Of a stretch of DNA of 41,713 nucleotides, positions 32,215-37,670 are shown one piece after another. Every line of letters begins with the position of its first letter. The first letter of the stretch is position 1. The stretch is taken from NCBI GenBank assembly GCA_027491075.1, contig JAIXWX010000026.1:1-41713 (forward strand), read 5' to 3'. The stretch is from Flavobacteriales bacterium (GTDB taxonomy: Bacteria; Bacteroidota; Bacteroidia; Flavobacteriales_D; Sanyastnellaceae). Made by a program: the position numbers and the translations under genes. The notes beneath the pieces are model-generated. The model made no database searches. It saw nothing but the letters and a program-made list of their open reading frames with translations, and was not told where the DNA came from.

Positions 32215-32721
32215 TTATAGTGTGTCAATCGTTTTCTTCTTTTTGCACCTTTCAATAGAATTGAGATAGGTATCAATGTTGGCATCTAGCAGCGTAAGAC
32301 GTGCAGCCATTTTATATTTCTCCATAGCATCATCATATCTCCCTGTCATCTCCAGACATATTCCCAACTCGTTGTAAATGTTTGGTCGATCGATGCCCGG
32401 TACTTCCAAAGCGGTGTTCAAAAGCTCCAATTGCTCGGCATACTTCCCCAACGTACTAAGAAGAATGGAAAAATTCACATAAATGGGTGTATAGTTTGGG
32501 TCTAAAGCCAAACATTTGCGGTACATATCCTCCGCTTTTACATAATCTTTATACTGCGTTTCAAAAATCCAACCCAAATGATTATAAGCCTTCCCGTAGT
32601 CAGGAGCTTCTACCAATATTACTTCCAAAGTAGAAATCGCTTCCGTAATTCGTTTTTCTTTGATCAAAGCATCAGCTTCAAAAAAAAGATCATCTAATTT
32701 TTGTTTTTGAAGAAAATCCAT
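32215..32721 (-). CDS. TPR-repeat protein
   Basis: 168-residue protein made almost wholly of tetratricopeptide repeats (AYNHLGWIFETQYKDYVKAE, IYVNFSILLSTLGKY, IYNELGICLEMTGRYDDAMEKY). No signal peptide, so cytoplasmic. TPRs bind other proteins. It is packed between a DUF2306 membrane protein (1-base gap) and hemJ (2-base gap), which suggests a role with one of these, but nothing in the sequence names the partner. Confidence 0.82.
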   Translation of the reverse strand: MDFLQKQKLDDLFFEADALIKEKRITEAISTLEVILVEAPDYGKAYNHLGWIFETQYKDYVKAEDMYRKCLALDPNYTPIYVNFSILLSTLGKYAEQLELLNTALEVPGIDRPNIYNELGICLEMTGRYDDAMEKYKMAARLTLLDANIDTYLNSIERCKKKKTIDTL

Positions 32722-34336: not shown

Positions 34337-34867
34337 ATGAAAAAGACCGTGCTGGCGAAAGAAACACTTGCTACCGCTACCCACCTTGTACTACCTGAAA
34401 ACACCAACACACTAGGAAATCTAATGGGTGGTCAGTTGCTTAATTGGATGGACGTTATTAGCGCCATCAGCGCGCATCGCCATTGTAAGCGTATTGTTGT
34501 AACTGCTGCTGTCAACAACGTGAGCTTCCAACATCCAATAAAACTCGGAGATATCGTAACCATCGAAGCCAAAGTATCTAGAGCTTTCAGCTCATCTATG
34601 GAAGTATATATGGAGGTGTTTATTGAAGATAACGCAACTGGAAAAAAGCTCAAAAGCAACGAAGCTATCTACACTTTCGTTGCGGTAGATCAACTTGGAA
34701 CACCTATCGATGTACCAGATCTAGTTCCTGAGACAGAAGAGGAAAAACGACGATATGACGGAGCCTTAAGAAGAAGACAACTTCGACTGATCCTTGCTGG
34801 AAAGATGAAACCAGAAGACGCAACGGAATTGAAAGCACTGTTTATCGAACCCAAAGCCTTTCAATAG
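34337..34867 (+). CDS. Acyl-CoA thioesterase, hotdog fold (YciA/BACH-like)
   Basis: Hydrolyses acyl-CoA to free acid and CoA. Length is 176 residues with one hotdog domain. The sequence LPENTNTLGNLMGGQLLNWMDVISAISAHRHC has the conserved Asn and Asp of the acyl-CoA hydrolase family, and VNNVSFQHPIKLGDIVTIEAKVSR is the second conserved block. Chain-length preference unknown. It is a single gene, divergent from the YARHG operon and convergent with the GT9 gene, overlapping that by 26 bases. Confidence 0.9.
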   Translation: MKKTVLAKETLATATHLVLPENTNTLGNLMGGQLLNWMDVISAISAHRHCKRIVVTAAVNNVSFQHPIKLGDIVTIEAKVSRAFSSSMEVYMEVFIEDNATGKKLKSNEAIYTFVAVDQLGTPIDVPDLVPETEEEKRRYDGALRRRQLRLILAGKMKPEDATELKALFIEPKAFQ

Positions 34868-35822
34868 CCTTTAAGATTGCTTCATCCTCAATTTGATGAA
34901 TGCATTTGTTGGCCATTCCATACTTGCAACGGTTTCCAAGTTTTGAGCAAGGGCGTTTCTTTCGAAAGTTGGGCTCCAGTATAACAGAATGTTCATTCGG
35001 TCGATAAGGACTCATGCCAAATCCCGGTACAGTACAGCCCCATAGTGAGATAATCTTCTTTTTAAACGCAGCGGCAATATGCATCATACCGGTATCTCCA
35101 CTGATCACCACCTCTGCACCTTTCACTACCAAAGCACTTTCATCAACAGATAACTTACCGCACCAATTAAAAACTCCCTTGACTTTATCTTGAATAACAG
35201 CAGCCGTAGATTCATCCTCCTTTCCTCCAACGAGTACGACTGGATATTGTACTTTTAACAATAAGTCAGACCATCGTTCGGCACCCATTCGCTTCCCTAT
35301 ATGTGCGGCACCTATCGCCACAGCGATGTACTTTTCAGGAAGACCTTCTGGTGATCTGGTTTCGGGAGCACAATAATAGTCCAAACCTTTACCATCGTCT
35401 TTCACTGAAAAAGCTTCTAAAGTTTTTAAATACCTGTCCACAACATGTTCTTTCGGCATCCAATTGATTCCGAAATTCACCCAGATCCATTTCTGGATGT
35501 TGCGTTTATCGAAGGTGAAAGACAGTCTTTTCAAGCGCCGTTTGACAATGCGAGAACGTATGTTACTATGAAGATCAATGACGTAGTCAAAATCAACATC
35601 CATCAAGTCTGGTATAACTTCTTGTATAGTTCTTTCCATGGTATGTACCTTGAATACCATGGGATGATGCTCCAATAAAAACGAATACGACTTTTTTGTA
35701 AGGAAGTGAATCTCCACAGGGCCTTCCAGTTGTTCATACAGGTATCGAATGACTGGAGTTGTAAGGACGATATCTCCAATAGAACTCAGTCGAATAACAA
35801 GAATACGCGTGGCTGTCGACAT
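34842..35822 (-). CDS. GT9 family glycosyltransferase (LPS heptosyltransferase-like)
   Basis: Transfers heptose from ADP-heptose to lipopolysaccharide core in characterised members. Length is 326 residues, GT-B fold. Seen: RLSSIGDIVLTTPVIRYL at the N-terminus, DYVIDLHSNIRSR, YIAVAIGAAHIGKRMGAERW, and the nucleotide-binding block VISGDTGMMHIAAAFKKKIISLWGCT. hldD at 9.7 kb supplies ADP-heptose. Its start is 4 bases from a perfect -7 box and shares a 34-base gap with divergent tatD. Confidence 0.9.
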   Translation of the reverse strand: MSTATRILVIRLSSIGDIVLTTPVIRYLYEQLEGPVEIHFLTKKSYSFLLEHHPMVFKVHTMERTIQEVIPDLMDVDFDYVIDLHSNIRSRIVKRRLKRLSFTFDKRNIQKWIWVNFGINWMPKEHVVDRYLKTLEAFSVKDDGKGLDYYCAPETRSPEGLPEKYIAVAIGAAHIGKRMGAERWSDLLLKVQYPVVLVGGKEDESTAAVIQDKVKGVFNWCGKLSVDESALVVKGAEVVISGDTGMMHIAAAFKKKIISLWGCTVPGFGMSPYRPNEHSVILEPNFRKKRPCSKLGNRCKYGMANKCIHQIEDEAILKAIERLWVR

Positions 35823-35826
35823 AGCG

Positions 35827-35834
35827 CAAATATA
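35827..35834 (-). promoter_or_regulatory. -7 box for GT9 gene
   Basis: Perfect TATATTTG on the minus strand, 4 bases before the ATG at 35822. Predicted start of transcription is at or next to the A of the start codon. Confidence 0.6.
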
Positions 35835-35844
35835 AGAGTAGGTC

Positions 35845-35852
35845 TATATTTG
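35845..35852 (+). promoter_or_regulatory. -7 box for tatD-ansA
   Basis: Perfect TATATTTG, 4 bases before the tatD ATG at 35857. It is the mirror image of the minus-strand box in the same 34-base gap. Confidence 0.6.
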
Positions 35853-35856
35853 TACC

Positions 35857-36639
35857 ATGCAATGGATTGATACGCATTCTCACCTGTATTTACCTGCTTT
35901 TGCCGAAGACAGACCACAATGGCTGCAAAGACTAGATACAACACATATAGAAAAGGTTTTTCTTCCCAACATAGACAAGGAAAGCATTGGTGCCATGCAA
36001 GAGTTGTGTGCCATGCAACCGGAAAGATTCTTTCCCATGCTAGGATTGCATCCTTGTGATGTCAAAGAAAACTTCAATGCAGAATTAGAAGAAATAAAAC
36101 AGCATTACCAGACTCTTCAACCCATCGCAGTTGGTGAAATTGGAATAGACCTCCACTGGGATAAATCCACCTTGAAACAACAACAACAAGCCTTTCGTCA
36201 ACAAATAGAATGGTCATTGGAGTGGAACCTACCCATTGTGATTCATGCTAGAGAGAGTTTTAAAGAGATCTTTGAAATACTTGACACCTATAAAGCACCT
36301 ACTTTAAGGGGAGTTTTTCACTGCTTTACTGGAGGGATGGTTGAAGCCGAAAAAATCCTTAGTTACAATAACTTTTTACTGGGAATTGGAGGTGTACTCA
36401 CCTATGAAAAATCTGGATTGGATAAGGTCATTGAGCAAATTGACTTAAGACATCTGGTCTTAGAGACAGACGCTCCATTTCTTACTCCAAAGCCATACCG
36501 AGGAAAGCGCAATGAAAGCTCTTACATCCCCATTATCGGGGCTCGATTAGCAGAAATAAAAGGAGTGACCATGGAAGAGGTTAGCAATACAACCAGTACC
36601 AATGCGCTTAGAATGTTTAACTTGGCCCATTCTCGATGA
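35857..36639 (+). CDS. tatD: TatD-family metal-dependent hydrolase/DNase
   Basis: Amidohydrolase-fold nuclease of 260 residues. Metal ligands are visible in the DTHSHLYLPAF start, GEIGIDLHWD, IVIHARES, VFHCFTGG and LETDAPFLTPKPYRGKRNES, the full TatD set. It is coupled by a 4-base overlap (ATGA) to the asparaginase. Substrate in the cell is unclear; DNase and D-aminoacyl-tRNA deacylase activities are known for family members. Confidence 0.94.
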   Translation: MQWIDTHSHLYLPAFAEDRPQWLQRLDTTHIEKVFLPNIDKESIGAMQELCAMQPERFFPMLGLHPCDVKENFNAELEEIKQHYQTLQPIAVGEIGIDLHWDKSTLKQQQQAFRQQIEWSLEWNLPIVIHARESFKEIFEILDTYKAPTLRGVFHCFTGGMVEAEKILSYNNFLLGIGGVLTYEKSGLDKVIEQIDLRHLVLETDAPFLTPKPYRGKRNESSYIPIIGARLAEIKGVTMEEVSNTTSTNALRMFNLAHSR

Positions 36640-37670
36640 AAGGAATACTGCTTATTTATACAGGAGGAACCATCGGAATGATGGAGGATCCAGCATCAGG
36701 AAGTCTTACTCCCCTGAACTTCCAAGAACTTCGCACATATATACCTGAGATTAGAAGATTTTCATTTAGAGTTGACGTCAAAGCGTTCGATAAGCCCATT
36801 GACTCCAGCGACGTTCAAACACAAACATGGTTGGAAATAGCAGATTTGATTCACCAACACTACGATCAATATGACGGATTCGTAGTATTGCATGGCACAG
36901 ATACCATGGCTTACAGTGCGTCTGCTTTGAGTTTTGTTTTGAGAAATTTAAAAAAACCAGTAATACTCACTGGAAGTCAACTTCCCATTGGGAAACTTCG
37001 CACCGACGGCAAAGAAAACTTGATCACAGCCATTGAAATCGCTTCAGCCAAGCGCAACGGCGATGCCATTGTACAAGAGGTAGCGGTACTCTTTGATTCC
37101 AACCTTTTTAGAGGAAACAGAACACATAAATACAGCACCGAAAACTTCGATGCATTTGTTAGCCCTAATTATCCACCTCTCGCCACTGTTGGAATTTATA
37201 TTAAATACGAGTGGAAGCATTTGTTGAGAACACAAGGAGATTTTTTTGTGGAAAGGCACTTTGAAACAGACGTTGCGATATTAAAAATCTTCCCAGGAAT
37301 GAGCATTGATTATGTCAATGCCATCCTAAATATCCCTAGATTAAAAGGAGTAGTTCTTGAAACATACGGCAGTGGAAATGCCCCTAAAGACGCAGCGTTA
37401 ATTTCGGCTCTTCAAAAAGCCATAGAGAATGGAATTTGTATCCTAAATATTACACAATGCAGCAAGGGTTTTGTAGAGCAAGGAAGATATGATACGTCCG
37501 CAGGCTTGCAAAAAATCGGTGTTACCTCTGGTGGAGATTTGACTACAGAGGCTGCGCTTACTAAGTTGATGTTTCTGCTTGGAAAAGGCTTGCGCGGAAA
37601 ATCACTGCACGAACAATTGACCTCACCTATTTCTGGAGAAATTACCACCTTCTCCTCTATTTCCGATTGA
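36636..37670 (+). CDS. ansA: Type I (cytosolic) L-asparaginase
   Basis: Hydrolyses asparagine to aspartate and ammonia. The 344 residues have no signal peptide, so the enzyme is cytosolic. Catalytic threonines lie in IYTGGTIGM (Thr12) and VLHGTDTMAYSASAL, followed by VILTGSQLPIGKLRTDG. The C-terminal regulatory/oligomer part is normal. A TatD-asparaginase pair is a frequent Bacteroidota neighbourhood. No promoter lies between them. Confidence 0.94.
   Translation: MKGILLIYTGGTIGMMEDPASGSLTPLNFQELRTYIPEIRRFSFRVDVKAFDKPIDSSDVQTQTWLEIADLIHQHYDQYDGFVVLHGTDTMAYSASALSFVLRNLKKPVILTGSQLPIGKLRTDGKENLITAIEIASAKRNGDAIVQEVAVLFDSNLFRGNRTHKYSTENFDAFVSPNYPPLATVGIYIKYEWKHLLRTQGDFFVERHFETDVAILKIFPGMSIDYVNAILNIPRLKGVVLETYGSGNAPKDAALISALQKAIENGICILNITQCSKGFVEQGRYDTSAGLQKIGVTSGGDLTTEAALTKLMFLLGKGLRGKSLHEQLTSPISGEITTFSSISD

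Follow-up and report, generated by a model that had tools for sequence, protein, structure and literature searches.

Probable overlapping back-to-back promoters with predicted leaderless starts between a GT9 glycosyltransferase gene and tatD in a Flavobacteriales bacterium

The window, a 41,713-nucleotide stretch of DNA from a Flavobacteriales bacterium, contains two divergent genes whose start codons are separated by only 34 bp, and within this gap the same octamer stands before each of them. This raises the question of whether both genes are transcribed from promoters so close to their start codons that the messages begin with the ATG itself, a possibility of some interest in Bacteroidota, which largely do without Shine-Dalgarno leaders. 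It also raises the question of whether promoters packed this tightly could fire only one at a time. To address these questions, we examined the layout of the gap, the relation of the octamer to start codons in the same genome, and the fate of both boxes in related genomes.

Layout of the gap and predicted starts

The features on which the argument depends are as follows.

35823-35856: intergenic gap of 34 bp between the GT9 gene (- strand) and tatD (+ strand), divergent neighbours
34842-35822, - strand: GT9 glycosyltransferase gene (heptosyltransferase family), start codon at 35820-35822; open reading frame with Pfam PF01075, E 1.1e-24
35857-36639, + strand: tatD gene (TatD-related DNase family); open reading frame with Pfam PF01026, E 1.5e-67
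36636-37670, + strand: asparaginase gene downstream of tatD; open reading frame with Pfam PF00710 and PF17763
35827-35834, - strand: GT9 -7 box TATATTTG, 4 nt from the GT9 ATG
35845-35852, + strand: tatD -7 box TATATTTG, 4 nt from the tatD ATG
35835-35844, no strand: 10-bp spacer between the two -7 boxes, its length not conserved in relatives
35822, - strand: predicted GT9 transcription start (A of the ATG), placed by the box-to-start distance of 4-5 nt in Flavobacterium johnsoniae (PMC6847099)
35857, + strand: predicted tatD transcription start (A of the ATG), placed by the same F. johnsoniae distance (PMC6847099) and by a pyrimidine bias at -1 in the family

The first-pass annotation had reported TATATTTG on both strands of this gap, 4 bases from each ATG, and this proved exact to the base: the + strand reads AGCG, CAAATATA, 10 bp, TATATTTG, TACC and the tatD ATG, while the - strand reads TATATTTG, then CGCT, then the GT9 ATG. 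At the far end of tatD, its stop codon and the start codon of the asparaginase gene share 4 bases (36636-36639), an overlap from which we take the two genes to be, probably, one transcript made from the tatD promoter.

The octamer is of a familiar type. TAnnTTTG is the -7 element of sigma-ABfr, the main sigma factor of Bacteroidota, which has been described together with a -33 TTTG in Bacteroides fragilis and F. johnsoniae (PMC6847099, PMC7366714), and in the latter species T-12, A-11, T-8 to T-6 and G-5 are reported as nearly invariant (PMC6847099). TATATTTG has this form on both strands, with no G at the two middle bases, and each copy also matches the revised consensus TAHHTTTG. Many F. johnsoniae starts lie 4 or 5 nt downstream of the -7 box (PMC6847099), and since each of our boxes ends 4 nt before an ATG, +1 is predicted at the A of the ATG in both genes, in agreement with that distance; for the same reason, both mRNAs are predicted to be leaderless.

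Mapped transcriptomes of the phylum put such messages in a minority, with leaders shorter than 10 nt at about 3.7% in Bacteroides thetaiotaomicron (PMC7366714), leaderless transcripts at 5.5% in Flavobacterium psychrophilum (PMC9723704) and leaders longer than 10 nt in 87% of the F. johnsoniae transcripts that have a probable promoter (PMC6847099); in contrast, PMC5397173 refers to reports that a large fraction of Bacteroidetes messages is leaderless. The frequency in the present genome appears similar to the mapped few per cent, as an exact box stands 4 or 5 bases before the start codon in 16 of the 274 genes called in our sample of it. Because leaderless mRNAs are few in mapped Bacteroidota, leadered transcripts may be made from an unseen upstream start.

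In sigma-ABfr promoters, the -33 element is TTG or TTTG and lies about 19-23 bp from the -7 box. It had been proposed from the sequence of the gap that the -33 region of each promoter lies in or against the other gene. The position stood, in that a +1 on the A of both ATGs puts the -33 points at 35824 and 35855, the edges of the gap beside the opposite start codon, but no -33 element was found there, and in this the gap promoters differ from the described sigma-ABfr promoter. A TTG 17-23 bp upstream of the box occurred in none of the 25 family tatD promoters with a box at the 4-base distance (hereafter N4), and on the GT9 side the closest TTG, judged by eye, precedes the box by 25 bp. The -33 motif of F. 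johnsoniae is also weak and far less evident than the -7 box (PMC6847099), and for that reason we did not treat it as strictly defining a sigma-ABfr promoter.

Register of the box in the genome and in relatives

The octamer alone is not rare in the window, where it occurs 5 times against 2.45 expected and where at least 5 copies appeared in 7 of 100 shuffles. Its distance to start codons is a different matter. Across 381,158 bases of the window's genome, in which closed open reading frames of at least 100 aa supplied 2004 candidate ATGs, exact TAnnTTTG boxes numbered 11 at distance 4 and 6 at distance 5, compared with a mean of 1.22 per distance over distances 10-59. In the same sample, TATATTTG stood at distance 4 from an ATG 4 times against 0.14 (the gap's own two boxes counted), and five permuted or reversed patterns gave at most 2 at distances 4 and 5. 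Genome-wide, TANNTTTGNNNNATG had 115 matches and the backwards-read pattern 31. Of 40 genomes compared, counting the window's own, 38 had more box-N4-ATG places than the control gave; only G040 and G042, both of other families, did not, and the surplus tended to be greater within the window's family. We conclude that the register of box to start codon is not a product of chance. The base at -1 in the window's genome was C or T at 10 of 12 N4 sites and at only 3 of 6 sites with a distance of 5.

We then asked how this register fares before tatD in relatives. Sixty genomes were searched, the window's included, and all 56 with a tatD match were examined, with start codons of tatD and GT9 chosen by a motif-based rule without regard to the box and with at most one mismatch in six allowed in the box itself. 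Of the 34 family genomes, 25 had the tatD box precisely at N4, as did 6 of the 22 from other families (31 of 56 in all, the window being one), whereas distances outside 3-8 averaged 0.26, 0.18 and 0.44 hits each in the family, the other families and the whole set, respectively. Boxes without any mismatch held the N4 place in 17 of 34 and 2 of 22. Among the 25 family promoters at N4, the base at -1 was a pyrimidine in 23 (C 20, T 3) and the base at -4 in 24 (C 19, T 5). These pyrimidines lie outside the criteria by which the promoters were selected and provide a supporting signal, a pyrimidine at -1 being expected for a start on A. The earlier claim that both messages begin at or beside the start codon thus agrees, as a prediction, with the F. 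johnsoniae numbering, with the tatD register in the family and with its -1 pyrimidines. Six relatives (L007, L015, L016, L019, L024 and L053) carry TAnnTTCG or CAnnTTTG at the same N4 place before tatD, which suggests that these are tolerated variants of the -7 box.

Two wider samples trace the extent of the trait. A second set, reached via GT9 and partly overlapping the first, began with 110 loci, from which we dropped five that were not divergent, one without a start, and others in which one of the two genes was missing from the stretch or the start region was identical; tatD had its box at N4 in 31 of the 39 divergent loci, including two Bacteroidales records (L125, L129), although several of these 39 are close relatives of each other and some GT9 starts are uncertain. 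In a class-level survey, 147 of 148 genomes had a match, and 29 loci besides the window, nearly all from other families of the class, were examined: the tatD box was at N4 in 6, an exact box lay 17-19 nt away in 7, and there was no box within 40 nt in 7. Given 6 of 22 in the first survey and 6 of 29 here, the N4 trait before tatD is most pronounced in the window's family and weakens beyond it.

GT9 lies divergent to tatD in 37 of the 56 genomes, and its box is held less strictly, at N4 in 8 of these loci and between N4 and N8 in 21, so that the distance drifts. Both same-genus relatives keep both TATATTTG boxes, with the GT9 octamer at N4 in one and at N8 in the other. A comparison of the gap in relatives, proposed by the first-pass annotation as a test in which no conservation of either box would count against its reading, did not refute it.

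To gauge how special tatD is, we followed other genes preceded in the window's genome by an exact box at N4. The names of two of them, RlmD-like and RsmE, are ones that we presume from the N-terminus; Pfam supported DnaG and the RNA methyltransferase domain and gave no match for the 185-aa RlmD-like piece. Searches of 40 relatives found matches in 35, 40 and 38 genomes for RlmD-like, DnaG and RsmE, and the best 30 loci of each were used. With at most one mismatch, the box was at N4 in 4 of 23 family genomes for the RlmD-like gene, against 25 of 34 for tatD (the window's genome being one in each), in 4 of 24 for DnaG and in 8 of 19 for RsmE, a comparison that is uneven in that the controls' starts were alignment-based, those of tatD and GT9 motif-based, and the sampling differed. 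The RlmD-like figure may be understated, as 6 of its 30 loci lack an ATG around the place where the start was expected and were scored as misses, and one of these six (L220) has TATATTTG nearby. A fourth control, the TPR gene at 32215-32721 in the window, was dropped, having one relative at 67% identity and other listed matches at or below 41%. Very short leaders look habitual in the family, and among the genes tested, with three usable and unevenly sampled controls, tatD appears to hold the register best. The boxes resemble those of leaderless bacterial mRNAs (PMC3160421), lying at -12 to -5 from an ATG that is the predicted 5' end; the differences are that the starts are here predicted from sequence and that the tatD register is kept better across the family than that of the three other genes.

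How the two promoters relate

Is the pairing of two such boxes in one gap itself exceptional? Exact boxes at N4 or N5 precede 7 of the 78 divergently placed genes of our sample (the window's two included), which form 39 pairs, and independent pairing would predict about 0.3 double pairs among them, or about 0.2 without the window's two genes. For the whole genome, the prediction is about 2-3 double pairs (about 1 without those two genes), and two whose boxes are separated by no more than 30 bp have been identified (on contigs C6 and C32). Both boxes in one gap are therefore not clearly above chance, and the window's pair is a member of a small group. General boxes opposed to each other with at most 30 bp between them occur at 25 places, compared with 20 for the backwards-read pattern, which is no clear excess; by our reading, 11 of these places, among them the window's, separate divergent open reading frames and have an ATG or GTG no more than 40 bp from the box in each direction.

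Several other places came to light in these searches. At 37311-37341 of contig C32 in the same genome, a CitMHS-type transporter gene (-) with its box 5 bases from the ATG and the RlmD-like gene (+) with its box 4 bases from the ATG form a second double near-leaderless pair with 15 bp between boxes (positions 512-542 of locus L211). At 8613-8645 of contig C20 (positions 1501-1533 of locus L133), CAAATATACCCTC, 7 bases and GAGGGTATATTTG form an intergenic, perfect 13-bp inverted repeat that resembles a hairpin or terminator and also holds two opposed -7-like boxes. A genome from another family of the order has an opposed pair of TANNTTTG-N4-ATG with 30 bp between boxes (G044, contig C2, 124313-124372). 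In the literature collection searched, no paper combined leaderless mRNAs, Bacteroidetes and TatD, and among the papers found there on overlapping or back-to-back divergent promoters none, judged by title, concerned Bacteroidota.

Since a polymerase covers roughly -55 to +20, the footprints on two predicted starts 35 bp apart would overlap almost fully, and mutual exclusion of GT9 and tatD firing, as the first-pass annotation had raised, is plausible on geometric grounds. Such overlap might even be selected as a regulatory toggle, so that the two genes fire exclusively. This idea is compatible with two separate promoters and adds a selected function to them, and short gaps do recur, at 45 bp or less in 12 of the 37 divergent loci. 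However, gap length among these loci ranges from 29 to 689 bp, and the spacing of the boxes is no better kept: 15 bp in both same-genus relatives versus 10 in the window. Where each gene has its box 3-8 bases from its start (21 loci, window included), the boxes are 0 to 103 bp apart, save for one locus at 665. Variable box spacing argues against a conserved overlap, chance pairing alone would yield roughly as many double N4/N5 pairs as are known, and in Escherichia coli the five bidirectional promoters tested fired too rarely at the basal rate for the two directions to compete, with interference arising once one direction was strongly activated (PMC12825309). We therefore regard a selected toggle as improbable. 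The promoters of Grainger and co-workers (PMC12825309, PMC10268837) resemble the gap in that -7 or -10 elements are opposed and one bound polymerase would block the other; they are defined by starts 7-25 bp apart, most often 18, and usually consist of one shared near-symmetrical element (PMC12825309, PMC10268837). The gap differs in having two separate back-to-back boxes, and with predicted starts at 35857 and 35822, 35 bp apart, it falls outside that class (PMC10268837); it is best called a case of overlapping back-to-back promoters.

Two further readings were weighed. As a perfect 8-bp inverted repeat, CAAATATA-N10-TATATTTG could be the operator of a dimeric regulator of both genes, with its -7 likeness secondary, and CAAATATA-N5..30-TATATTTG is found at only two places in the genome, the window's included. 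The same variable spacing argues against such an operator, as a fixed distance between arms was not seen and each arm stays near its own start, and single boxes are the rule: among 100 listed of the 115 TANNTTTG-N4-ATG places, only the window's pair face each other. We set the operator aside as very unlikely. Alternatively, the boxes could be chance AT-rich octamers, with the true promoters further upstream, within the opposite gene. The mild over-representation of the octamer in the window would fit this, as would the predominance of leadered transcripts in mapped Bacteroidota (PMC6847099, PMC9723704, PMC7366714), but an ATG register conserved before tatD in most of the family, together with the genome-wide peak, leaves chance hardly credible.

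The reading that we consider highly probable is that the gap holds two separate back-to-back sigma-ABfr promoters. Each would consist of a -7 box TATATTTG without a recognisable -33 element, and we infer that transcription of each gene would begin at the A of its ATG, or within about 1 base of it, giving leaderless GT9 and tatD(-asparaginase) mRNAs. A polymerase bound in one direction would cover the opposite promoter, so that both could not be occupied simultaneously; at ordinary firing rates, such occlusion would probably have little effect.

Significance of the tatD register

The arrangement in the gap is real, a compact version of an established type of promoter that looks functional and is ordinary in kind. 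Its one mildly unusual aspect is that most of the family conserves the tatD start to the exact base. A stronger version would be that selection holds tatD leaderless, with initiation at the A of the AUG itself the trait conserved across this family, while GT9 tolerates a drift of a few bases and the 34-bp form allows a strong change at one promoter to dampen its partner. We think this version unlikely, although if it were true, tatD (with asparaginase) would belong to a set of mRNAs that require leader-free translation.

Mutual exclusion of the two promoters would matter only with experimental proof. The locus offers a clean Bacteroidota example of very compact gene starts, and the tatD box, apparently fixed to the base relative to its start codon over much of the family, hints that selection there may act on leaderless starts gene by gene.
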